Virus record (IMG/VR): IMGVR_UViG_3300037520_000961 | Coordinates: 1-31,304 of that record | Length of the DNA stretch: 31,304 bases | DNA from: a virus | Strand: one strand, 5' to 3' | In this document: positions 2,063-29,730 of the stretch, piece after piece | How the letters are laid out: every line of letters starts with the position of its first letter | Numbering within the stretch: the first letter of the stretch is position 1 | The notes under the pieces: model-generated | The model's input: only the letters and a program-made list of their open reading frames with translations | Told to the model about the DNA's origin: nothing | The model's database searches: none | Program-made: the position numbers and the translations under genes

Positions 2063-2511
2063 CGTGGCGTGACGCTCGCCGCGCTCTCGTGTCGATCCCC
2101 TCGACGGTGACGCCGTCGGTGGTCGGGCGAGGCCTGCCCAACAGATACACCCACGACGTCACAGGACACGACGAGACGGTGGGCACGCAGTCTCGCCGAT
2201 GGTGGGGCCGAGTCCTCTCCGGCGCGGCTGAGGGGCCATACCAGACGCAGCAAACGCGGCACCGGCTGACATGGGAGGTCGTCGTCGAGTACGTCGACAG
2301 CCTCGGTGATACCGCGTCGATTGACGAGGCCATCCCCACAGACGCGGCGCAGCTCGCGACCGCTTTCGCGAGTGGCGCAAATTGGGATCGGGCGTCGTCG
2401 GGCATCGTGGCGGTGACGCCAGCGGGCACCGACGTAGCGCCCTACACTGTGGAGCAGGTGAGCGGAGCTCGCCGACTGCGGATGACTCTTGAGGTGAGGT
2501 ACAGCACATGA
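2059..2511 (+). CDS. Putative tail terminator protein
   Basis: 150 residues, GTG start overlapping the previous stop by four bases, with GAGG at about 2047-2050. No catalytic motif is visible. The middle part (TWEVVVEYVDSLGD, then a Thr/Asp/Ala segment with the DAAQLATAF helix) and the terminal strand RLRMTLEVRYST resemble the small alpha/beta tail-terminator proteins that cap the tail tube and join it to the neck. Its place just before the tail tube gene, with an ATGA overlap, fits this. A minor tail protein of the same position is the alternative. Confidence 0.55.
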   Translation: MTWRDARRALVSIPSTVTPSVVGRGLPNRYTHDVTGHDETVGTQSRRWWGRVLSGAAEGPYQTQQTRHRLTWEVVVEYVDSLGDTASIDEAIPTDAAQLATAFASGANWDRASSGIVAVTPAGTDVAPYTVEQVSGARRLRMTLEVRYST

Positions 2512-3740
2512 CCGACGTCGCCAGACTCTCGACGCTGCGCTACGCGCTGCATTCCAACAACGCCACTTTCAGCGGCACGCCTGGCACGCTGTTCCCGCTT
2601 CGTCTCACCGACGACGGCGCATCGTTCTTGCCACGCAATCGCACGCCGATCCCGCGCCCGCTGCGATCGCTCTCGGGCCGGCGCTACTCGCATATCCGCG
2701 GCGTCCAAGACCTCGCCGACATCACCGTGGCGACGGAGATGCGCGGGGTCAACAGCAACACGGGCGCGGCCGTCACCGACTGGGAGGCGAAGATGGAGCA
2801 AGGCTACTTGCTCGCCTCGCTCTTCGGTGCGGTGGCTCCCGCGACGACAGGCGTTGCGCCGACGGTGGCAGCATCGGGTCACACGCCAGCGTCCGGCATC
2901 GTCGCCGTCGTCGGAACCACGACGGCCAATGGACAGGTCATCGCGTTTTCGTCGTCGGCCGGCCTTCAGGTCGGCCGCATCGCTAGCGGCGGTGGCACTA
3001 CGACGCTGACGCTCGATCATCCCTACAGCGGCACACCGACGACGTCGGCGACGGTGTTCCGGATGGGCGTCTACAGCGTCAACGACGCCGTCACTCACCA
3101 CGTGCATGCGTTCTTCGCCGCTGAGGGCGAGGATTGGCGACGCGACTACTTCGGCTGCATGCCGATGAGCATGAGCCTCGCAATGCCCAACGCTGGCCTG
3201 GTGACGATGTCGTCGGTGTTCTCGCCGACGTCGTTTGCCCATCTCGCTGAGGCCAACCCGGCGCACGCTGAGCCGACGAGCGGTAATCCCATCGTCGTCG
3301 ACGCATGCCGCATGTGGTTTGCTGGTCATGACGTCATCGCGCGCGACATCACGATCAACTACTCCGCTTCGACGACGCCGCGTGTTGCGTCGACGCGCAC
3401 CAACGGGCGCCTTGGTGGCGTGTCGTCGACCGGCGACGGTAAGACGTTCACGGTGGAGTTCAGCGTCTACCTCGGCGACGGCAACATAGCCGGCGAAGTG
3501 CGGGACAGCACTGGCTCGCCGACGCTCAATGAGCTCATCGGCGACAGCTCATCCAGCGGCCAACCATCGACGACGCGCAAGGTCTCGCTCCAAGTCGGCA
3601 GCGAAGTCGGCGCGGTCGTCTATGCCTACCTGCCCGAGGCCGACTGTGTGGTCACCACGCAGCACACCGACGGGCTTACTGTTGCTCGCGTCGTCGCCAC
3701 TGGTACCGGCGCTCTTCCTGCTATCCTCGCTGTTGGGTGA
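2508..3740 (+). CDS. Putative major tail tube protein
   Basis: 410 residues, ATG overlapping the previous stop (ATGA), with GAGGTGAGG at 2491-2499. The composition is that of a tail tube subunit: Thr/Ser/Gly/Ala-rich and beta-strand-rich throughout, no transmembrane segments, few lysines. Residues about 115-185 (a Gly/Thr-rich stretch with SSSAGLQVGR and the TLTLDHPYSGTP turn) look like an inserted Ig-like or loop domain, making the protein longer than many simple tube proteins (about 150-250 residues). Tube proteins form stacked hexameric rings around the tape measure. The identification comes from position after the terminator candidate and from composition, not from a signature motif. Confidence 0.6.
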   Translation: MTDVARLSTLRYALHSNNATFSGTPGTLFPLRLTDDGASFLPRNRTPIPRPLRSLSGRRYSHIRGVQDLADITVATEMRGVNSNTGAAVTDWEAKMEQGYLLASLFGAVAPATTGVAPTVAASGHTPASGIVAVVGTTTANGQVIAFSSSAGLQVGRIASGGGTTTLTLDHPYSGTPTTSATVFRMGVYSVNDAVTHHVHAFFAAEGEDWRRDYFGCMPMSMSLAMPNAGLVTMSSVFSPTSFAHLAEANPAHAEPTSGNPIVVDACRMWFAGHDVIARDITINYSASTTPRVASTRTNGRLGGVSSTGDGKTFTVEFSVYLGDGNIAGEVRDSTGSPTLNELIGDSSSSGQPSTTRKVSLQVGSEVGAVVYAYLPEADCVVTTQHTDGLTVARVVATGTGALPAILAVG

Positions 3741-3744
3741 TCAC

Positions 3745-4146
3745 ATGACCGTCCGAATCGCAAACACCGTCCGCAATTCTCGCATCGACGAAATCCGTAT
3801 CGCCGTCGACGCTGGCGCAGGCGCTGGTCTTCTCCGTATCTACAGCGGCACCAAGCCCGCCAAGGGCGGCACGCCCGCGGGTACTTTGCTCGCTGAGCTC
3901 ACATGCGCCGATCCTTGCGGGTCGTCGTCGTCGGGCGTGCTCACGTTCACGACGCCTTTCTCCGACACGTCGGCGAACGCAACGGGCACCGCCGCGTTTT
4001 TCTATCTCGTCGACTCGACGGGCGCTTTCGTCTGCGACGGCGACTGCGGCACGAGCGGGTCTGACCTCAACTTGACGACGCTGTCGATCGTGTCGGGTCA
4101 ACCCGTGCAGGTGACGTCGCTGACGATCACCGACGGAAACAACTGA
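3745..4146 (+). CDS. Small beta-rich virion-associated protein
   Basis: 133 residues from ATG 3745; the frame is open further left but that part overlaps the tube gene and is not protein-like. The sequence begins MTVRIANTVRNSRIDEI, followed by LLRIYSGTKPAKGGTPAGTLL, and ends with strand-like Thr/Ser segments. This is a pattern I know from small phage structural proteins with IYSG(T)xPA motifs in environmental siphoviruses; no enzymatic role is suggested. It contains two close cysteine pairs (CADPC and CDGDC). It probably decorates the tail or capsid. The function is not established. Confidence 0.55.
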   Translation: MTVRIANTVRNSRIDEIRIAVDAGAGAGLLRIYSGTKPAKGGTPAGTLLAELTCADPCGSSSSGVLTFTTPFSDTSANATGTAAFFYLVDSTGAFVCDGDCGTSGSDLNLTTLSIVSGQPVQVTSLTITDGNN

Positions 4147-7113: not shown

Positions 7114-7424
7114 CGGCGCTAACAATCAAGCAAGGCCACACGCAGTCTGTGACGCTCCAGGTGCTCGCCAGCGGCGGCGGCGCGTTCAACCTTACCGGAT
7201 ACGCGGTCAGCCTCGTCGTGCGCGCCCAAGGCCAACTGGTGAAGGCAGGGACGGTCGTCTCGCCAGCGACGGGCGAGGCGACCTTCGCCTTCGCGGCGGC
7301 GGACTACGCCTCGGCACTCCAGCCCGGCCGGTGGCCCTATGAGGTCTGGGTCTCAGACGTCGACGAAAACCTGCCCGTCCTCTCCGGTACCCTCACGATC
7401 GTCGACGTCCCGCAGCGCGTGTGA
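7110..7424 (+). CDS. BppU-type N-terminal Ig-like baseplate/fibre adaptor
   Basis: 104 residues, ATG overlapping the previous stop (ATGA). The sequence MTALTIKQGHTQSVTLQVLASGG..FNLTGYAVSLVVRAQG...GTVVSPATGEATFAFAAADYASALQPGRWPYEVWV..LPVLSGTLTIVD follows the pattern of the small Ig-like domain at the N-terminus of phage BppU-like baseplate upper proteins. In those proteins the domain attaches a receptor-binding part to the tail tip. Here the domain is alone, with no fused fibre, so it probably acts as an adaptor for a neighbouring fibre protein such as the repeat-built one upstream. The fold assignment is good, the partner is inferred. Confidence 0.72.
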   Translation: MTALTIKQGHTQSVTLQVLASGGGAFNLTGYAVSLVVRAQGQLVKAGTVVSPATGEATFAFAAADYASALQPGRWPYEVWVSDVDENLPVLSGTLTIVDVPQRV

Positions 7425-7458
7425 TATCGCCGCGCATCACCCTCACCATGAGGCGCAC

Positions 7459-8109
7459 ATGCCCGCACTGTTGATTTACCCCGGCACCAAAGGGACGCCC
7501 GTCCCGCTCCAGGACGTCCTTCGCGAGGCCCACGATGCCTTTCGCGAGGCCCGCAAACTCCAAATCGAGCAACGCCGCAAACGGCGTGTGCCGCTCGACG
7601 ACAGCACTGACTGGTCCGAGGCCAAGGCAGCCGCCGATCGCGTCTCTGCGGCCGTCACAGAGCGCGACACGGCCAAAGCCTCGCGAGAGGCGCGAGCCCT
7701 CGCGGAGCTCACCGATGGCAACGCCCTCGAAGAGGTCGGCCCCTATGATGCAGACCCAGCCGTCGATGGGATCATGGTCACGATGCAGGTCGTCGCCGAT
7801 GCCGACCGGCGTCTCTGGACCGCCGAGACGCAAGCGGCCTGGTCGAGGCTCAAGGAGGCGCGCATCGCTGGCGACCACGTCGCCGCGCAAAAGGCGCTGA
7901 ATGACATGGACGCCGTCGCCGCTCGCGTGGTGTCGGCCGTTGTGGTCGAGCTGCAAGGCATCGAGGGGCTCAAGGCGACGATTGCCGAGTCGATGCCGGG
8001 CCTCGTGCTCGCCGGGCTCCTGGCTCCGCTTTACGCGGCCGCAAGGCACTTCCTCGAGCTGCCGCCGGGAAAAGCCGTGCGCTGTGGGCTGCAACCGCTG
8101 TCGACCTGA
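7459..8109 (+). CDS. Tail assembly chaperone, short (gpG-like) product
   Basis: 216 residues, ATG 7459 with GAGG at 7450-7453; the frame is open further left but has no ribosome site there. The sequence begins MPALLIYPGTKGTPVPLQDVLREAHDAFREARKL and is then rich in Ala, Glu, Arg and Lys helices. Family membership is judged from position directly before the tape measure gene and from the frameshift signal near its 3' end. As in lambda, the short product is made by most ribosomes and a longer product (to 8447) by those that slip. Such chaperones bind the tape measure and recruit tail tube subunits, then leave the tail. The zero-frame tail after the slip site ends only 12 codons later. Confidence 0.7.
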   Translation: MPALLIYPGTKGTPVPLQDVLREAHDAFREARKLQIEQRRKRRVPLDDSTDWSEAKAAADRVSAAVTERDTAKASREARALAELTDGNALEEVGPYDADPAVDGIMVTMQVVADADRRLWTAETQAAWSRLKEARIAGDHVAAQKALNDMDAVAARVVSAVVVELQGIEGLKATIAESMPGLVLAGLLAPLYAAARHFLELPPGKAVRCGLQPLST

Positions 8110-8447
8110 CGCGGTACGACTGCGACGACTGCCCCACAGCGCGGCGAGCTCAGCAAGGGTGCACCTCGGATGGACCGGTGCTTTTCTTCGCCGGCACCGA
8201 GTACGCCACGCGCCGATGCCCACGGCGTCACCTCCGCGACAATCCGGACGTCGGCGGCGCCCTCGCGCTTTGGCGCGCATGCGAGGGCAAGCCCGGCGTC
8301 GAGGCTTTGCGAGCCCTGTCAACTCACACGGCCGATGCTTTCGTCGTTATCGATGGCGGCCGAGCTGCTAAGATGCAGTCGGACGCTGAGCAAGCACGCA
8401 ACGACGCACGGGCGCAGGAGGCCGCGAGGCCACGGGGTCGACGATGA
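7459..8447 (+). CDS. Tail assembly chaperone, -1 frameshift (gpGT-like) product
   Basis: Translation of the first 205 codons in zero frame, then a -1 slip at GGGAAAA (8067-8073), gives a predicted 329-residue protein ending at TGA 8445-8447. The -1 frame is open from the slip site to that stop and looks like real coding: it contains C-x2-C near YDCDDCPTARR, another Cys about nine residues later (QQGC), then FFAGTEYATRRCP, a possible zinc-binding set. A separate start for this frame (GTG 8178) would lose this conserved-looking part, so I do not favour it. Its stop overlaps the tape measure ATG (ATGA), coupling the two genes. In lambda the gpGT product binds tail tube protein through its T part. 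Confidence 0.72.
8067..8142 (+). promoter_or_regulatory. Programmed -1 ribosomal frameshift signal
   Basis: The zero-frame reading G-GGA-AAA (8067-8073) is a canonical X-XXY-YYZ slippery heptamer. Five bases later begins GCGCTGTGGG (8079-8088), which pairs perfectly over 10 bases with CCCACAGCGC (8133-8142). Inside the loop ACCGC (8094-8098) pairs with GCGGT (8111-8115). This spacing and stem are what -1 frameshifting needs. Confidence 0.78.
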
Positions 8448-10162
8448 CGCAGACGATTGAATACGTCGTCAAGGTGAACGCCACGCAAGCCCAAGCGGCC
8501 GTCGCCGACGTGGAGAAGCGCTTCGGCGGCGTCGACACTGTCGTCGCCCGCGTCGACAAGTCGATCATCGCGCTCGAGCGCGACATGAAGGACCTCAACG
8601 CCGCTATCGCGGCGGGCGGGCCGAATGTTGAGCACTATCGGAAGGAGCTTGACGCCCTCGGCCAAGCGGCTGGGCGTGCTGTCGGCGGCAAGAGCGGCCA
8701 AGGAAACATGGGCCAAGGCTTGCTCATGTTTTCGCAGACGCTCGACGATGCACAGTATGGCGTGAGAGGAATCGTCAACAATATCCCTGGGCTTGTGCAG
8801 GGCCTCGGCATGGGGATGGGCGTCGCTGGCGTCGCTCAGGTCGCGATGATTGCCGTCTCGCAACTGACCGACAAAGTCACCGGATTCATCAAAAAACAGC
8901 AAGAGGCGTCTCAGGCTGCAATCGTTATCCGCAACTCAATTTTGGACATGCGGATCGCGTCTGGCCAGACGACGGAGGATCTCAGAAAGCGTCTCGAAGA
9001 AATCAAAGTGGAAGCCGTCGGCGGCAGACCTGCGGTGCTAAAAGCACAGACCGACAAAGAGGTAAAAGACCTCGAGACGTCAATCACCAACAACGAGCAA
9101 AGGCTCGAACGGATACGGAAACAAACGCTCGAGCGCTTTCCGGAGGCCACGCGACTAGCCGCGATGGGAGACGCCAATCGTCTCATGTCGGATACAGAAA
9201 AGAGAGAAGCGAACGCAATCAAGCTCAGGATTGATGCCGACAAAGAGTCAATCGAGAACGCGAAAGAAAATCTCAGGCTACGGCTCGAGATAGCCAAGGC
9301 AGAAGAAGAAGCCGCAAAGAAAGCGGCAGCTCGATTCAAAGGCGGCGGCGGCAGCGGTGCTTCGGTCGAACGCGACTATGCCGTCTCTCTCGAAGAGCAG
9401 GCCGCATATGGAACGGGCTTTCGTGGTCAGACTCTTATGTCGACGATCGTCGAAGACACGGCGAAGCGGCAAGCCGAGGCCGCGCAAGATGCGTCGGACC
9501 TTGAGAACGAAATCCGCCAAGAGATGCTCAAGCACGACGAGAAGAACAACGCGGCGGCCGAGAAGCTCGACAGAGAGCGGACGCGAGAGCTTGACCGGCA
9601 GGCTCGAGAGCGACAGCAAATCCGAGAGCGCGAGGCCGAGCACGCGAGGCGGCTCCACGAGCAAGAGGTCGACTATCTGACGCAGATGGGAACGACGGCG
9701 GCGGCCGCTATCGGCACCTTTGCGGCGCAGTCGGCGGCCGGACAAGAAGAGGCTTTTCAGAATCTCTTGGGAACCGCGTCGATGCAAGCCGGTGGCATCA
9801 TCATGCTTGAGGGCGGCAAGGTCATGGCCGCAGGTATCGCGGGCATGCTCACTGCGCCAAATCCTATCAGCGCGGCTCAAATTGTCGGAGGCGGCGCCCT
9901 TGTCGTGGCGGGTGCTGCGGTGCAGACGGGAGGGCCTGCGGTAATCTCGTCGCTGATGAGCATTGCAACTGGCGGCGGCGGAAAACAAGCAGCCGCCAAA
10001 GACCGAGGCGCCTCACCTCGAAGTGGTAGCGGTGGCGGCGGCGGCTCAGGTGGCCTCGTCGTGAACGTGAGCTACGGCGCTGGTGGCCCGTTGCCAGAGG
10101 ACATCGCCAGAGAGATAGATAAAGTGGTGAAGAGCAACGACCGCCGACGAGGTGCAGCGTGA
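8444..10162 (+). CDS. Tape measure protein
   Basis: 572 residues, ATG overlapping the chaperone stop (ATGA). Residues about 88-150 carry a typical tape measure block: LLMFSQTLDDAQYGVRGIV, then NNIPGLVQGLG with a hydrophobic Gly/Ala/Met segment. Residues about 200-300 and 330-410 are long charged coiled-coil helices rich in Glu, Lys, Arg and Gln. Residues about 415-515 are a hydrophobic Ala/Gly-rich region with possible membrane-inserting helices, followed by a Gly-rich linker. Tape measure proteins set tail length and enter the host envelope at infection. At about 1.5 angstroms per residue the predicted tail is short, near 85 nm. The central coiled-coil is AAG/GAA-rich, so its GC content is lower than in neighbours. 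Confidence 0.9.
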   Translation: MTQTIEYVVKVNATQAQAAVADVEKRFGGVDTVVARVDKSIIALERDMKDLNAAIAAGGPNVEHYRKELDALGQAAGRAVGGKSGQGNMGQGLLMFSQTLDDAQYGVRGIVNNIPGLVQGLGMGMGVAGVAQVAMIAVSQLTDKVTGFIKKQQEASQAAIVIRNSILDMRIASGQTTEDLRKRLEEIKVEAVGGRPAVLKAQTDKEVKDLETSITNNEQRLERIRKQTLERFPEATRLAAMGDANRLMSDTEKREANAIKLRIDADKESIENAKENLRLRLEIAKAEEEAAKKAAARFKGGGGSGASVERDYAVSLEEQAAYGTGFRGQTLMSTIVEDTAKRQAEAAQDASDLENEIRQEMLKHDEKNNAAAEKLDRERTRELDRQARERQQIREREAEHARRLHEQEVDYLTQMGTTAAAAIGTFAAQSAAGQEEAFQNLLGTASMQAGGIIMLEGGKVMAAGIAGMLTAPNPISAAQIVGGGALVVAGAAVQTGGPAVISSLMSIATGGGGKQAAAKDRGASPRSGSGGGGGSGGLVVNVSYGAGGPLPEDIAREIDKVVKSNDRRRGAA

Positions 10163-23766: not shown

Positions 23767-24453
23767 TCAAAACATCGTTGGTGTGTAGCCTCGTTCGAGG
23801 CGTCTTCTGGCTATCTCGTAGTGCTCGGGCTTCTCCTCTGACGTGATGCAGCGACGGCCTTCCATCGCCGCAGCAAGGGCGGTGGTGCCAGAGCCGCAGA
23901 ACGGGTCCACAATGAGGTCGCCGGGGCGGCTGTAGTCGCGGACGATGGCGCGCATGAGGCCGAGGGGCTTGCAGCCTGCGATTCCGGCCCCCTTCACCGT
24001 CGGCGCTTCATAGGCACCGGGCAGACAACCCCACGTCGCCATCGTCTTGTTCCTCGGGCGCCCGACCATCATGTAGACAGCCCACGACGACGGACCATCC
24101 CCGACAAGGCGCGGGCGCTTCTGGATGATTGGTACCGGCGCGAACGTATACAGGCCAGCGTTTCGGTAGGCTGACTCCCATGCTGGGATCAGATCATGGC
24201 TCGTCATGCACGCCAGCCAGCCTCGACACCGAGGTGCCCATGCGCCAACGAATTCTACGACGGTTGTGGCAGTGAATTCTTCGTAGGCGATACTCTCGCG
24301 GGTATGCTGTCCTGTGATCGAGATGGTCGATTCAGCGCCGTCGTTGTGTCCGTCGTGAGTGGCCTTACTATACGGCGGGTCACAAATCACCGCATCGCAC
24401 GTCGTCACGTCGGCCAACACGTCTTGCCATCGGCCTAGCCTCAGATCAATCAT
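23767..24453 (-). CDS. DNA N4/N6 methyltransferase
   Basis: 228 residues, ATG 24453 overlapping the previous stop (ATGA). The DPPY catalytic motif (Asp25-Tyr28) is near the N-terminus and FCGSGTT (residues 185-191), the SAM-binding motif I, is near the C-terminus: the beta-class order of N4-cytosine and N6-adenine methyltransferases. The middle part is rather short and without a long target domain. No cognate restriction enzyme is present, so it probably protects phage DNA from host enzymes or tunes phage gene expression. The target sequence cannot be predicted. Confidence 0.87.
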   Translation of the reverse strand: MIDLRLGRWQDVLADVTTCDAVICDPPYSKATHDGHNDGAESTISITGQHTRESIAYEEFTATTVVEFVGAWAPRCRGWLACMTSHDLIPAWESAYRNAGLYTFAPVPIIQKRPRLVGDGPSSWAVYMMVGRPRNKTMATWGCLPGAYEAPTVKGAGIAGCKPLGLMRAIVRDYSRPGDLIVDPFCGSGTTALAAAMEGRRCITSEEKPEHYEIARRRLERGYTPTMF

Positions 24454-24590
24454 CGTCCACCCAGCTCGCGATAAATCGTCTGCACAAGCGCCCAGTCGCG
24501 ATCGGTGAAGCTCGACTCGGGTTTCTTGCGAGACTCGCTCACAGCGCGCTTGGCTTTGTTCCAGATGGCTTCGTCTTTTTGTCCTGGCAT
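24450..24590 (-). CDS. Conserved phage micro-protein (46 aa)
   Basis: 46 residues, ATG 24590, stop TGA 24450-24452 overlapping the methyltransferase start. The sequence MPGQKDEAIWNKAKRAVSES, then RKKPESSFTDRDWALVQTIY, then RELGGR is strongly patterned (WNKAKRAV, FTDRDWALV, IYRELGG) and resembles a short conserved family in tailed phages. The function is unknown. Overlap with the next gene supports it as real. It is too short for most gene finders. Confidence 0.7.
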   Translation of the reverse strand: MPGQKDEAIWNKAKRAVSESRKKPESSFTDRDWALVQTIYRELGGR

Positions 24591-24600
24591 TATTGGCCCC

Positions 24601-24774
24601 TTATTGGTGAAAGCTGTCTTCAAGCTCTTCTTTGATTCTCGCCAGTCGAGTCTCAGCGTCGACGACGCGATAGAGCATCTCCCTGTATGCCTCCCACGCT
24701 TTGTCTCGTTGCGCGTTTGCCTCAGCGACGAGGGCGCGCAGGCGATCCATCTCGCGCCTTTCTTTTCGTGTCAT
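24601..24774 (-). CDS. Small charged helical protein (57 aa)
   Basis: 57 residues from ATG 24774, ending TAA 24601-24603. The sequence MTRKERREMDRLRALVAEAN, then AQRDKAWEAYREMLYRVVDA, then ETRLARIKEELEDSFHQ is almost entirely charged and helical, probably one coiled coil. GGGGAGAG lies about 13 bases before the start. Ten bases separate its stop from the next start. No function can be assigned. Confidence 0.6.
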   Translation of the reverse strand: MTRKERREMDRLRALVAEANAQRDKAWEAYREMLYRVVDAETRLARIKEELEDSFHQ

Positions 24775-24776
24775 CG

Positions 24777-24947
24777 TCACGGTTTCTCTCCCCTTGCTTT
24801 GGCGATGGCGAGCTCAACCTCGAGCACCCTCACACGTTCAAGCGCCTCGTTGCGCTCATCCTGCATGCGATGCCACACCGATGTAGGCACCACGACGACG
24901 TTGACGGTGTCGTCGAGGATGCCGAGGATACGGAACAGAAAGCTCAT
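24777..24947 (-). CDS. Small protein with hydrophobic N-terminus and helix (56 aa)
   Basis: 56 residues, ATG 24947 overlapping the nuclease stop (ATGA). A longer frame start at 25016 lies inside the nuclease gene and is not used. The N-terminus MSFLFRILGILDDTVNVVVVPTS is hydrophobic and may lie in or on the membrane. The rest, WHRMQDERNEALERVRVLEVELAIAKARGE, is a charged coiled coil. The family is unknown. Confidence 0.58.
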   Translation of the reverse strand: MSFLFRILGILDDTVNVVVVPTSVWHRMQDERNEALERVRVLEVELAIAKARGEKP

Positions 24948-25279
24948 CGGGTCACCGCTATGAGTTTTTGGACTGCGTCTACTGCCTGTTGTTTTCCTTT
25001 GGCGACGACGACGCAATCACCGAGGCCGCGCAAGTACTCATGCCAATCTTTCTGCTCTTTGCTGACAGTCCCGCCGTCGGCTCGCTTGAACTCGATCCAC
25101 AGCCGCAAGGCCGGAACATGGAGGTCAGGCACGCCGCGCGTAACGCCCTCCGCTTTGAGTCTGGCGCCTTGGCTGGCTCCACGGTGGCCACCGTTGGGGA
25201 TCGCGTAAACGCGCACGCTTGGGTGCGTCTGGCGCAGCCATTGAACGAACTCGCGTTGCTCTTCGTGCTCGGTCTTCAA
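24944..25279 (-). CDS. VRR-NUC domain nuclease
   Basis: 111 residues from TTG 25279, which overlaps the previous stop (TTGA) and has GAGG 7 bases before. An ATG at 25309 would add ten residues but has no ribosome site and more overlap. The VRR-NUC pattern is visible in order: EHEEQREFVQWLR, VYAIPNGGHRG (Asn-Gly-Gly), the GVPDLHVP motif with Asp, LWIEFKRADGG with the Glu-x-Lys pair, then SKEQKDWHEYLRGLGDCVVV. These residues form the metal-dependent active site of this PD-(D/E)XK subgroup. It may cut recombination intermediates or be a Holliday-junction-type nuclease in phages. Function in this operon is inferred. Confidence 0.82.
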   Translation of the reverse strand: MKTEHEEQREFVQWLRQTHPSVRVYAIPNGGHRGASQGARLKAEGVTRGVPDLHVPALRLWIEFKRADGGTVSKEQKDWHEYLRGLGDCVVVAKGKQQAVDAVQKLIAVTR

Positions 25280-25473
25280 AACGGGACCTCGTCTTTCCAG
25301 TCGGGGCATGCGTTGGGCGTTTCGGCGAAGTCGTCGGGTGGCTTCTCATCATGAACGCGGCATGCGTTGGTGTATCCGTCGAGGTGGTAACAGTTGAAGC
25401 ACACACGTGGCATGCGCTCGCGTAGCGCCTTGCACTCGTCGTCCCACACTTGCAGGGCCTTTGGTCGGTTCAT
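25276..25473 (-). CDS. Small zinc-binding protein (65 aa)
   Basis: 65 residues from ATG 25473, which overlaps the helicase stop (ATGA); a start at 25479 is possible but less fitting. The CFNCYHLDGYTNACRVHDEKPPDDF segment with C-x2-C, then Cys and His, then a NACPDW end suggests one zinc finger with four to five ligands. The same general pattern appears in small phage proteins with unknown roles. It lies between the helicase and the nuclease. Confidence 0.65.
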   Translation of the reverse strand: MNRPKALQVWDDECKALRERMPRVCFNCYHLDGYTNACRVHDEKPPDDFAETPNACPDWKDEVPF

Positions 25474-27107
25474 GCCCACGTCCTTCTCGTGATTGTGTTG
25501 AATTTTCCTTCGGTCGTGTACCGAATTTCAACCGGGTGTGGAGCGGCGTTGAAGGCCGCAGCCACGGCGTCAATATCGTTGTTTGCGATCAGGTCTGGCG
25601 GCAGATGGCTTGCCACCTTCTGCGCCATTTTGATCACGGTTGTCCATGCTTTTTGTCCTGCGTATCCGTCGTGGAGCACCGTCAGATATTCCGTGACAGG
25701 GTGGTCGCTGAGGCATCCGTAGTAGGTCACTGTCAGCATGTCTTTTCCCGAGCGGCTGGCGACCTTGCGCCATGTCCACTCGGTGACCTCGAGGACTTTT
25801 ACGTCGTCTGGGTTGATGCCAAAGACCATGTCAACTTCCTCGAGCTGTGGAGCCTCAGGCGGCGGTGGCGCAGCACGGGGAAACTCAAAGCCGCAAGCCG
25901 GGCAGGTCATGATGTGGATCGGGACAAGCTCGGCGCACTCGCACGATTCGCCGCCACGGATCACGGTGTTTGGGCACACCTTGACCGGCACTTCACCGTC
26001 TTTTCCAGGCCCCTTCACCCTCGGCGCCGTGATGGGTCCATGCTGTGCCACGAGACCGGCAAAATCGAGGACAAGACAGTCGGTCTTGCCTTCGGCCTTG
26101 CGGAGGCCGCGTCCGCTCATTTGCATGTAGAGGGAAACGGACATCGTAGGACGAAGGAACGCGATGAAGTCGACACCCGGCGCATCAAATCCCGTCGTCA
26201 GCACGTTGGCATTTGTGATCGCCGTGACCTTGCCATTCTTGAAATCGGCGATGATTTTCTCTCGCTCGCTCTTTGGTGTGTCGCCGGTGATGCACTCGGT
26301 GACGACGCCACGAGCCCGCAACGCGTCTAGCATGCGTTCGGCGTGGCGGACACCAACACAAAACACCAACCACGACTTGCGGCCCGTCGCATTGGCCATG
26401 ATTTCGTCGGCGACGATCGCGTTTTGTGCGTCGGTGTCGACGAGGTCTTGCAGCTCAGATTCAATGAACTCTCCGCCGCGCTTGTGCAGACCCGACGTGT
26501 CAAACTTCTTTTTGGTCGCGCGACATCGTAGTGGCGAAAGGAAGTCGCGAGATAGCAACTCCTCGACGCTGACAGGCTCCACGAGGCCATCGAATAGTGC
26601 GGGCTTGTCGGTGATGTATCCGTGGCCGAGACGGTAAGGCGTAGCCGTCAACCCGATCACACGCATGTGCTGGTTGTTTTTGGTCAACTCACCAATAAAT
26701 CGCCTATAGCTACCTTCGTCGTCGTGGTTGACGAGGTGGCACTCGTCGATGATGCATAGGTCGACGTGGCCGACGTCGGCGGCGCGGTTGCGGATCGACT
26801 GGATGCCGGCAAACGTGATCGGCTCACCGAGGTCACGACGACGCATGCCGGCGTGGTAAACCCCAAGCGGCGCCGCCGGCCAGACAGCGCGCATGCGCTC
26901 GGCGTTCTGCTCGATGATTTCTTTGACGTGTGAGAGCATGAGGATGCGTGTTTCTGGCCACTCTGTCAGCGCTTCTCGACACAGGGTGGCAACCACGACG
27001 CTCTTGCCGGCACCCGTCGGAAGGACGAGGCACGGATGGCCAGTGTTGCTCCGCATCCATTCCATGAGCTCGTCAATGGCGCGGCGCTGATAGTCCCTGA
27101 TCTTCAC
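25470..27107 (-). CDS. RadD-like superfamily 2 helicase
   Basis: 545 residues, GTG 27107 overlapping the previous stop (GTGA). Motifs in order: the Q-like MKIRDYQRRAID, Walker A PTGAGKS (30-36), DECH box (121-124), TATP (154-157), a TTGFDAPGVDFI segment (304-315), motif VI QMSGRGLRK (329-337), then a Cys group (378, 389, 391, 402, 405) that probably binds zinc as in RadD. RadD-type enzymes remodel recombination intermediates. The last 130 residues look like an extra domain of unknown function. Being in an operon with annealing and nuclease genes, it probably acts in phage recombination or replication. Confidence 0.88.
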   Translation of the reverse strand: MKIRDYQRRAIDELMEWMRSNTGHPCLVLPTGAGKSVVVATLCREALTEWPETRILMLSHVKEIIEQNAERMRAVWPAAPLGVYHAGMRRRDLGEPITFAGIQSIRNRAADVGHVDLCIIDECHLVNHDDEGSYRRFIGELTKNNQHMRVIGLTATPYRLGHGYITDKPALFDGLVEPVSVEELLSRDFLSPLRCRATKKKFDTSGLHKRGGEFIESELQDLVDTDAQNAIVADEIMANATGRKSWLVFCVGVRHAERMLDALRARGVVTECITGDTPKSEREKIIADFKNGKVTAITNANVLTTGFDAPGVDFIAFLRPTMSVSLYMQMSGRGLRKAEGKTDCLVLDFAGLVAQHGPITAPRVKGPGKDGEVPVKVCPNTVIRGGESCECAELVPIHIMTCPACGFEFPRAAPPPPEAPQLEEVDMVFGINPDDVKVLEVTEWTWRKVASRSGKDMLTVTYYGCLSDHPVTEYLTVLHDGYAGQKAWTTVIKMAQKVASHLPPDLIANNDIDAVAAAFNAAPHPVEIRYTTEGKFNTITRRTWA

Positions 27108-27946
27108 GGCTTCACCATGTGGTCGTGCGCCTCATAGTCGGTGCAGCCCATCCGCTGGTTGGCGACGGGGATCGGCTCGTAGTCGTGGCGTTCACAACGC
27201 CATGTGCCGTCTTCCTTCGCCGTCGAGTGTGCACACGTTCGGCAAGAGCGAGGCACGTCTCGTGTCGTCGGCGAGTGGCAGAACGAATGAGCCGCGCAAG
27301 GCTTGCACTGGTACCACGACGGGTCATGTGACAGCGGCGGCGGCATCTCGTCGACGATGGCAAGGCGCTTTCCTCGGGCGATCGCCTTCTCGGCGACGTC
27401 GCGGTCGTAGCGCACCCGCTCGGTGTAAATGCGGTCGTCGTCCTTGCACACGGCGAGATAGAGCGCCCGGTCGATGCCGAGGCCGTGCATGTAGCATTGC
27501 ATCTGGATGAAGTGGCGCGGCTTGGACTTTTCGACGCCATGCTTCTCGAGGTCGGCAAAGCTCTTGAGACTGTGGGTTTTAAATTCAGCAACGTGCGGTT
27601 TTTTCGGCGCCTCGGGAACGCCAGACCGGATCACGGCGTCGATGCTCCCCGACACATGACACCCAAAGTCGACGCGTTGTTGCTCGCCTTCGTCGATGAC
27701 ACACCCGATCGCCCGCAGGTCGCCGAGGATTACGGCTTCTTCGCGATGGCCTCGACGGAACAGACGCAGCATGCGCCCGCTGAACGATTCAGGGACAGCC
27801 CAGCGAAACTTGAGCCACAACCAGCGGTCACACTCGGCTCCAAGCTCGCTACAGCCCATATGGGCTCGTGGAGCTTCCTGGCGGGCCTCGTGGTGGGCGT
27901 CGATTGCAGACGCTGTCAGGCTTCGCGGTGGAGGGATGGGGGCCAT
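27104..27946 (-). CDS. Cas4-like Fe-S PD-(D/E)XK exonuclease
   Basis: 280 residues from ATG 27946. Residues 67-70 (HREE), Asp103 (GSIDAV), Glu121-x-Lys123 (AEFKTH) and Gln148/150 (QMQCYMH) are the expected nuclease motifs. Cys32 or Cys39 near the N-terminus and C214-x2-C217-x5-C223 match the four-cysteine [4Fe-4S] arrangement of Cas4 and AddB enzymes. A second cysteine group (235, 238, 251, 268) looks like an added zinc finger. Such enzymes digest DNA ends to give single strands for the annealing proteins nearby. The start is 15-25 bases after a terminator-like hairpin. Confidence 0.83.
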   Translation of the reverse strand: MAPIPPPRSLTASAIDAHHEARQEAPRAHMGCSELGAECDRWLWLKFRWAVPESFSGRMLRLFRRGHREEAVILGDLRAIGCVIDEGEQQRVDFGCHVSGSIDAVIRSGVPEAPKKPHVAEFKTHSLKSFADLEKHGVEKSKPRHFIQMQCYMHGLGIDRALYLAVCKDDDRIYTERVRYDRDVAEKAIARGKRLAIVDEMPPPLSHDPSWYQCKPCAAHSFCHSPTTRDVPRSCRTCAHSTAKEDGTWRCERHDYEPIPVANQRMGCTDYEAHDHMVKP

Positions 27947-27961
27947 TGTGGGTCACCAGAG

Positions 27962-27984
27962 AAAAGGGGGCCACGGGCGCCCCC
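27962..27984 (-). terminator. Terminator-like hairpin within the leftward operon
   Basis: On the minus strand GGGGGC pairs with GCCCCC around a 7-base loop, followed by TTTTC. It lies between the 66-residue gene and the nuclease gene, ending 15-20 bases before the nuclease ATG. It may lower or regulate transcription of everything downstream, acting as an attenuator. Confidence 0.65.
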
Positions 27985-27992
27985 TGGTTGTT

Positions 27993-28193
27993 TCACCGAT
28001 TCCACTTGTCGTGGTTCACGGTGATCATTGGCATGCCGTCGGGCTGACAGATCACAACGTTCACCGCCGTGCCGTTATGGTCCGACGGGAACGCGCGGGC
28101 GATCTGCACCAGCGCCTTGCTGATCTGTTCGTTGGATTCCACCAACCGCCGCAGAAGGACTTCTACCTCCGTCTCGTTGCTGGGCCCGCTCAC
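27993..28193 (-). CDS. Small protein of unknown function (66 aa)
   Basis: 66 residues from GTG 28193, which overlaps the DUF669 stop (GTGA); an ATG at 28205 would add four residues inside the previous gene. The N-terminal half is a helix (ETEVEVLLRRLVESNEQISKALVQIARAF), and the second half is a beta-like stretch (GTAVNVVICQPDGMPMITVNHDKW). The layout suggests an oligomeric scaffold but no family is recognised. It is the last gene before the terminator-like hairpin. Confidence 0.6.
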   Translation of the reverse strand: MSGPSNETEVEVLLRRLVESNEQISKALVQIARAFPSDHNGTAVNVVICQPDGMPMITVNHDKWNR

Positions 28194-28666
28194 TTCTTCC
28201 CCCAAGGCGGCGTCTTCGCCGCAGCAGCAGAGGTAGCTGGCGTCGTAGTCGGTGCAGCAGCAGCACCGCTGGCCGACTTGTACGCCTTCACCTCGTTTTG
28301 CGTTCCGTACTGCTCGGACTCTTTGATCGTGACCTTCACCGAAACCGAGCGACCAACCAGCTGATCGGTATCCTCGAGGCGCGGCAATCCGACGGCGCGC
28401 ATAAGCTCTCCGAGCTGCTGCGCACCGATTTCCTCAGCCTTCGGGTTCGGGTTGCGCAGGTTGATGTTTGAAAACAGCACCCGCCCCTGGTGCGACGGCC
28501 CCGTGACGTCGAGGCGCATCTTGATGTAGCTGCCGGTCCCAGCCTGAGTCTTCTTGATGTCCGCTTCCGAAATCGTCGCGGCGTACCAGCCAGCGGGCAG
28601 CGGCTCGAAGTTTCGGTCACTCTTTGGCAAATCGTCTGCAACGTAAGTCTGATCAAGTCTCGCCAT
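28190..28666 (-). CDS. DUF669 family, putative single-strand DNA-binding protein
   Basis: 158 residues, ATG 28666 with AAGGA before it, 3 bases after the previous stop. The sequence FEPLPAGWYAATISEADIKKTQAGTGSYIKMRLDVTGP, then GRVLFSNINLRNPNPKAEEIGAQQLGELMRAVGL, is the DUF669 pattern. This family is usually encoded next to phage recombinases and is thought to bind single-stranded DNA. The C-terminus is an Ala/Thr/Pro-rich linker ending PPWGKK. Here it lies near Sak4, which agrees with this role. Confidence 0.85.
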   Translation of the reverse strand: MARLDQTYVADDLPKSDRNFEPLPAGWYAATISEADIKKTQAGTGSYIKMRLDVTGPSHQGRVLFSNINLRNPNPKAEEIGAQQLGELMRAVGLPRLEDTDQLVGRSVSVKVTIKESEQYGTQNEVKAYKSASGAAAAPTTTPATSAAAAKTPPWGKK

Positions 28667-28669
28667 GGC

Positions 28670-29050
28670 TCATCCTTCTTTCTTTGCAATGCTGAAGCTG
28701 GGTCGGCCCGGCTTCGTGGTGATTGCCCCGGTCAGTGGCTTGGTGATGCTCTCGTCGGCGCGCTCCCACGCCTTCGCGTTGATCTCTGCTTTCCAGCGGA
28801 ACAGGGCCGACAGGTGATCGGTCAACCCCGCCTCGCGGGCAAGGTCTTGTAGGGCGTCGGTGTCGACCTTGCGATCGATACGCCCAACGATCTTGATCTC
28901 GACGTCGTCGAAGTCGCGCCGCATGGTGCCGTCAAGGTCGGCGGGCACCTTGAGGGCTGCGGCGATCTGGTCCTCGAGGTCGCGACGGCGCTCCTGCGCT
29001 GCGCGCTCCGCTTCCTTGGCTTCCATCCAGGCGGTGAGGAGATCGATCAC
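28670..29050 (-). CDS. Conserved protein of the phage recombination cassette
   Basis: 126 residues from GTG 29050, overlapping the ATPase stop (GTGA). The sequence has a helical N-terminus (LLTAWMEAKEAERAAQERRRDLEDQIAAAL), then GTMRRDFDDVEIKIVGRIDRKVD, DHLSALFRWKAEINAKAWERAD and the ending TTKPGRPSFSI. This protein type is regularly encoded between a Sak4-like ATPase and DUF669 in phages (possibly DUF7173). It has no known catalytic motif. It may assist recombinase loading. The family recognition is from pattern memory, the function is unknown. Confidence 0.68.
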   Translation of the reverse strand: MIDLLTAWMEAKEAERAAQERRRDLEDQIAAALKVPADLDGTMRRDFDDVEIKIVGRIDRKVDTDALQDLAREAGLTDHLSALFRWKAEINAKAWERADESITKPLTGAITTKPGRPSFSIAKKEG

Positions 29051-29730
29051 TTTGCACCGCCGATCTTCCCGATCAGGGCCTTCAGGTCATACGGCTCCCA
29101 CATGTCGAGGCGGCCGCTGCGATCTTTCGCGTGCCAGACGCCGTCGTCCTGGCATTGAAAAACACGCTCAACCGTCTCACCAGTGCGATGGACGCGGACG
29201 ACAAGGACCTCGTCGAAGTAGTAGGGCAGGTCCGCCGTCAATTTCTTTCCAGGCATGCTGGCGACGTAGCGGAGCTCGCCCATCTCGGTTGCGCCCTTTT
29301 CGACCTTCGCCGTCATGACGACGTGGCGGTTTGGAAGGTCGCGAAAGGCGCGGATGATGCCCGCCATCTTGTCCTGCATCTCGCCATAGGCTGCTCGTGG
29401 GTCCTTGGCGCCCTTGCCGCCCTTGCGCTCGGCGGCAAGGACAACCTCGGCAATCTCAGACAGCGAATCGACTCCGACGGCGTTGAACTGGCGGGCCTCG
29501 GCGGACTCAGTCAGCCACGCATAAGCCTCGTACAGATCGTCGATGCCGTTGATCGTAATGTAGGGTTTGTCGCTGTCGCGAATCGACAGCAGCCCCTCTT
29601 CGGCGGACAGGATGACAATGTCGTCCAGCTGGGCAAGCGCCCGCGTTTTACCGGCGCCAGACTCACCGGGCACCAAAACCTTCACAAATGGCGCAGACAA
29701 CGCGCCGGTTCTGCGTAACGAAATGGCCAT
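29047..29730 (-). CDS. Sak4-like RecA-fold ATPase / annealing protein
   Basis: 227 residues, ATG 29730 with AAGGAGG before it. It has the Walker A motif GESGAGKT (22-29), the Walker B region FNAVGVDSLSE with Asp88, and AEEGLLSIRD (residues 43-52) as in the AAA_24 phage nucleotide-binding family that includes Sak4. Sak4 enzymes promote single-strand annealing with a partner SSB; here DUF669 may be that partner. It is the first gene of the leftward operon and is read from the divergent promoter region. The ATPase fold is sure, the annealing role is by analogy. Confidence 0.83.
   Translation of the reverse strand: MAISLRRTGALSAPFVKVLVPGESGAGKTRALAQLDDIVILSAEEGLLSIRDSDKPYITINGIDDLYEAYAWLTESAEARQFNAVGVDSLSEIAEVVLAAERKGGKGAKDPRAAYGEMQDKMAGIIRAFRDLPNRHVVMTAKVEKGATEMGELRYVASMPGKKLTADLPYYFDEVLVVRVHRTGETVERVFQCQDDGVWHAKDRSGRLDMWEPYDLKALIGKIGGAK

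Follow-up and report, generated by a model that had tools for sequence, protein, structure and literature searches.

Two adjoining open reading frames in different frames, placed directly upstream of a probable tape measure gene, raise the question of whether the second is a gene of its own or an extension of the first that is reached when ribosomes slip back by one base. They lie in an IMG/VR virus record of 31,304 bases, the whole of which is referred to here as the window, and an earlier note on this DNA had proposed that they form a tail-chaperone gene with an unusually complete -1 frameshift signal. Tail-chaperone frameshifting itself is well known. We put at roughly 90% the probability that lambda-type -1 frameshifting makes a G / G-T pair of tail chaperones at this locus, with an extension built on four cysteines (Cys4) that most likely bind zinc.

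The proposed elements, i.e. heptamer, 5-base spacer, 10-base stem and inner hairpin, were all recovered exact to the base (Table 1), the two arms of the stem being perfect complements. The -1 frame is indeed open from the slip site to a stop that overlaps the start of the following ORF, while the 0 frame continues past the slip site for 11 codons; the long form is predicted to have 329 aa. Across the 4,726 in-register positions of 15 ORFs that we picked, GGGAAAA occurs a single time, together with AAAAAAC twice and GGGTTTC, AAACCCA and AAACCCG once each elsewhere. A search of positions 7400-8600 against Rfam gave no RNA family match.

Table 1. Coordinates of the features at the chaperone locus of the window.
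Feature	Position	Strand	Description	Basis
0-frame ORF, putative short tail assembly chaperone (G form)	7459..8109	+	216 aa; ATG 7459, stop TGA 8107-8109	function by position and analogy
Slippery heptamer, -1 register	8067..8073	+	GGGAAAA, read G_GGA_AAA in the 0 frame (Gly204, Lys205)	0-frame codons; GGGAAAA in 33/34 records
Spacer	8074..8078	+	GCCGT, 5 nt	same length before the 5' arm in 29 distinct sequences
Stem, 5' arm	8079..8088	+	GCGCTGTGGG, nearly invariant	fold and alignment
Stem, 3' arm	8133..8142	+	CCCACAGCGC; partner 5 nt further on in other lineages	weak against coding controls
Inner hairpin	about 8096-8124	+		predicted fold only
-1 frame extension (T part)	8070..8447	+	125 codons counted from the slip-site AAA; open through 8444, stop TGA 8445-8447	kept in 33 contigs; -1 frame under selection
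Cys4 motif, probable zinc site	8121..8219	+	C-x2-C-x9-C-x18-C-P-R; Cys codons 8121, 8130, 8160, 8217	
572-aa ORF, probable tape measure protein	8444..10162	+	ATG 8444	position; variable length in relatives; annotated genes after distant relatives

A comparison of relatives, in which the frameshift reading could have failed, found the heptamer, the -1 frame and the extension kept in 33 viral contigs. These were found with a profile of the extension (A2), searched via two peptide patterns in its second half (around W68 and H86) that lie more than 60 codons away from the slip site. Among the 33 contigs the heptamer is GGGAAAA in 32 and A_AAA_AAA in the most divergent one, L088, whose extension is 48% identical and whose slip site has thus changed to another canonical one; with the window added, the site is canonical in 34 of 34 records (33 GGGAAAA, one AAAAAAA). 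One of the contigs, L065, is identical to the window across the 1,100 bases compared, and the 34 records comprise 29 distinct sequences over the stretch from -60 to +93 (26 distinct rows in the shorter stretch of alignment A8). The incomplete record L004, which also has GGGAAAA, was excluded from the counts, and an earlier DNA-pattern scan (33 stretches) is not used as evidence for the heptamer, which was part of its pattern. The 0-frame ORF is kept in all 23 relatives aligned. In L088 the 0 frame passes the usual stop and continues for 48 codons, giving the short form a long alternative tail.

The pattern of variation near the slip site tells the two frames apart. Among the 29 distinct sequences, all columns from the heptamer to +23 are fixed in 28 or 29, except for spacer positions 10 and 11, and further on, between +24 and the 0-frame stop, variation is highest at third positions of -1 codons. 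Seven alleles within columns 23-40 are found in at least five of the 29 sequences; every one of them is synonymous in the -1 frame and changes the 0-frame residue. When all 28 alleles of columns 8-40 are counted, 12 are silent only in the -1 frame, 8 only in the 0 frame, one in both and 7 in neither, whereas the 99 possible changes would divide into 26, 28, 2 and 43. The check for synonymous constraint suggested by the earlier note therefore identified -1 as the constrained frame ahead of the 0-frame stop, a pattern of alleles which argues that the -1 frame is translated before that stop is reached.

Cultured phages carry distant relatives of the extension. A tblastn search with the window extension gave a weak match (E 0.03) to Rhizobium phage L338C, and the L338C extension, used as a query in turn, led to 12 records, seven of which were read (Rhizobium phages L338C, RHph_I4 and RHph_TM16, Agrobacterium phage JP1, and Rhodobacter phages RcTiptonus, RcZahn and RcDurkin). 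All seven loci have a Cys4 extension that continues the preceding ORF in its -1 frame after an in-register heptamer. This heptamer is GGGAAAC in L338C and RHph_I4, AAAAAAC in RHph_TM16, JP1 and RcZahn, and AAAAAAG in RcTiptonus and RcDurkin, and the 0-frame ORF ends 10 to 91 nt away from it. With RcDurkin omitted as a near copy of RcTiptonus, a heptamer falls in the last 100 nt at six of six loci, against 1 of 5,832 other in-register positions there. Aligned with hhalign, the profiles of the two extension groups, thin as they are (Neff 2.0 and 2.8), match over 89 columns with a probability of 96.1 and an E-value of 3.1e-9; on this profile evidence the window extension is homologous to -1 extensions in alphaproteobacterial phages, those of Rhizobium, Agrobacterium and Rhodobacter. 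Extensions of the cultured loci are 20-37% identical to those of the other group, and the 0-frame chaperones of the two groups, compared by eye only, look different in sequence.

Two further matches of the tblastn search, H5 and H6, were rejected; neither is followed by an annotated tape measure gene, and H5 runs antisense to annotated genes. The window chaperone, the tape measure ORF and the L061 extension had no match in cultured phages, the extension profile found no relative in contigs of bacterial genomes, and the extensions of JP1 and L088 as single queries yielded no further contigs.

RcZahn is a case in which the extension bears on published data. The excerpt of PMC8601537 describes the chaperone genes of this phage as being without clear evidence of frameshift sequences. 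In its record (L106, MW677529.1) we found an in-register A_AAA_AAC at positions 1801-1807 of the locus, ahead of the tail assembly chaperone ORF; the 0-frame ORF ends 22 nt further on, and the -1 frame opens 3 nt before the heptamer. The -1 frames of RcZahn, KLRLGVMAIRLMPERSCAGC, and RHph_TM16, KLRLGVAAIRLMPDRECSKC, agree right from the slip site, in a region upstream of the annotated start in RcZahn.

Could the extension be a separate gene, with a start inside the -1 frame or with re-initiation at an NTGA overlapping the 0-frame stop? The first usual start codon in the -1 frame of the window is GTG 8178, at the 0-frame stop the overlapping -1 codon varies among relatives between CTG, TTG and GTG, and in L338C and RHph_I4 GTG codons occur in the -1 frame 18-30 nt past the slip site, so that for these two phages alone re-initiation may be an alternative. 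But 8178 comes after two of the four conserved cysteines, and a third straddles no start. In 12 of the 34 records the -1 frame does offer a possible start ahead of the first cysteine, Cys18, whereas the other 22 have no ATG, GTG or TTG in that frame before it, and five records have none even before the fourth, Cys50. The constraint on the -1 frame also begins upstream of the 0-frame stop. On the start-codon tables and the frame under selection we reject an independent start or re-initiation, and consider a separate gene very improbable.

A long form could also arise by slippage of the polymerase on the A run instead of slippage of the ribosome, and L088, with seven A in a row, would suit such a process; the other 33 of the 34 records have just four A after GGG, and a run of four is short for polymerase slippage, which leaves this explanation with only a slight chance. 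That the two adjoining frames are the remains of a once continuous gene, split by decay or by a sequencing error, is hardly credible and was ruled out by conservation, since 34 records drawn from many assemblies all share this break to the base. As for ribosomal frameshifting, we are close to certain of the slip itself.

The stem is the least supported element of the frameshift signal. Its perfect 10-base pairing stands, but goes only mildly beyond chance: when the 3' part of the window is given random synonymous codons, a mean of 8.4 of the 10 pairs is retained and all ten form in about 9% of trials (p 0.09). The 'perfect stem' is less striking than it appears because most of the pairing already follows from the two protein motifs. 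The fold of the window has a z of -1.76, with 13 of 200 shuffles as good. Among the 29 sequences the 5' arm is nearly fixed and the position of the 3' arm varies; ten of ten pairs form at +67..+76 in 11 and at +72..+81 in 8, and at least nine pairs form at one of these two positions in 27, L075 having 8 and L088 7. Other folds are preferred by four sequences (L075, L077, L082 and L083). Folding energy lies below the mean of random synonymous codons downstream of the overlap in 27 of the 29, most of them close kin, with a mean z of -1.33, and pair counts tested against coding give a combined p of 0.004 over 12 representatives and of 0.056 over 6 lineages, both sets being of our own choosing. 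By standard covariation 84.6% of cells are paired, a value reached in 47 of 500 shuffles, and slid versions pair 30 to 58%. The stem, barely above coding expectation, was not upheld as strong evidence by itself. We regard a stem at this site as likely, and some part for it in slippage as reasonably probable.

The identity of the gene as a tail chaperone just upstream of the tape measure gene, as the earlier note had it, is supported by position, by length variation and by annotated cultured relatives. In all of the 25 records inspected, picked from the 34, the start of the next ORF is at most 8 nt away from the -1 stop when the start giving the longest ORF is taken, and where complete (22 of the 25) it is 478-626 aa long. 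Tape measure protein lengths vary among phages, and by position and length variation the next ORF is probably tape-measure-like in all 25 records. An annotated tape measure gene follows at six of the seven cultured loci, with one short ORF in between in L338C; the RHph_TM16 record ends before that gene. At the three Rhodobacter loci one of the two ORFs is named tail assembly chaperone. Family searches gave no tape measure match for the 572-aa ORF of the window and no Pfam chaperone match for its 0-frame chaperone. The latter has a confident model (pLDDT 86), which gave weak fold matches, none with E <0.001, among them tail assembly chaperones of Arthrobacter phage Molivia (E ~0.08) and of Escherichia phage K1H. 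A fold comparison with the PDB was set aside as it returned general helical matches only, with Z up to 8.4.

The extension itself is marked by its cysteines. The Cys-x2-Cys and further cysteines seen by the earlier note were confirmed, at positions 18, 21, 31, 50 and 71 of the window extension; the first four are invariant in 24 of 24 aligned sequences, as is Cys71 within the close family. Across 11 sequences from both groups, i.e. that of the window and that of the cultured phages, the four remain invariant, and so do K1, A8, the Gly that precedes the third Cys and the Pro-Arg that follows the fourth. The four form two pairs with a ligand-like spacing. What the earlier note had suggested, a zinc-binding part, thus gains four cysteines kept across deeply diverged phages, and zinc itself would be the probable though far from assured ligand, and the compact module, with which the extension opens in this phage group, would most likely serve as a structural zinc site, with a probably helical tail behind it.

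That frameshifting is real and the cysteines hold no metal, being kept for disulfides or another reason, is the less likely reading. The AlphaFold model of the extension, poor at pLDDT 55 and of no use for a metal site or a fold search, leaves room for it, but the C-x2-C...C...C-P-R spacing is invariant where neighbouring residues vary, and the protein would be expected in a reducing cytoplasm. Extension and chaperone had no match worth the name in Pfam, PHROG or NCBIfam, and searches of solved structures by sequence gave nothing related. By titles and abstract openings, the literature on tail assembly chaperones combined with zinc, cysteine or zinc finger held no paper on a metal site. Within the extension, the 24-base stretch 8215-8238 recurs inverted at 488-511 with one mismatch (E 2.9e-5).

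Lambda offers the closest known arrangement, with the G ORF, towards whose end a slip site occurs in the same register, then a -1 extension and the tape measure gene H. Its slip site, GGGAAAG, is one base away from GGGAAAA, as had been pointed out, and its T part has no Cys, so that the Cys-rich extension does differ from lambda gpGT. Family searches gave no sequence match to lambda; a 10-bp stem can form in the window. According to the excerpt of PMC5009743, the tape measure protein of lambda is bound by gpG and by gpGT, the less abundant of the two at a gpG:gpGT ratio of about 30:1, and the T part binds the tail tube protein. By analogy, we infer that this division of roles applies to the window chaperones too. 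At G_GGA_AAA a small share of the ribosomes on the chaperone gene would shift back by one base, with probable help from the stem that begins 5 nt downstream; most would stop 11 codons later and release the 216-aa form, and those that slipped would read 124 more codons. The tape measure protein would then be coated by G in many copies and G-T in few, and recruitment of the major tail protein would fall to the extension, the T part, whose presumed core is the Cys4 module. Pseudomonas phage Adele and the Vandenendeviridae likewise have a short and a long chaperone (TAC-N and TAC-NC) made via a conserved -1 shift, the downstream ORF being routinely annotated as hypothetical; their slip motif is GTTTTT, and the excerpt of PMC12846349, the source for these phages, mentions no Cys module.

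Elsewhere in the window, a block on the minus strand (23767-29730) matches a DNA methyltransferase, a DNA helicase, a Cas4-domain exonuclease and a Sak4-like annealing protein. Two long ORFs, 2508-3740 and 3529-4146, overlap in different frames; the second matches the virion structural family phrog_3758 from residue 74 on only, which puts its true start probably near 3740.

We believe that these data make a well-supported computational case for tail-chaperone frameshifting in uncultured phages, in which the letters of the slip site vary by group (GGGAAAA, AAAAAAA, GGGAAAC, AAAAAAC, AAAAAAG) and its slipperiness stays. Judged on Pfam, PHROG, NCBIfam and the literature, the Cys4 extension family and its spread over phage groups seem to be new; the family is missing from the three databases and is now linked to cultured phages, where it can be tested. 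For Rhodobacter phage RcZahn, published without a clear slip site as far as the excerpt of PMC8601537 goes, a candidate is offered here. More tentatively, and at somewhat less than even odds, the extension may be a 'Cys4 T domain', i.e. a separate class of chaperone extension, held together by zinc, translated solely through -1 frameshifting, responsible for recruiting the tail tube subunit, and common to phages whose 0-frame chaperones look unrelated. If this is true, the extension is exchanged between phages as a module in the course of evolution, and their tail assembly would rely on zinc or on the host cell's redox state. A defined metal site in the T part would offer a way to study how this part grips the tail tube protein.
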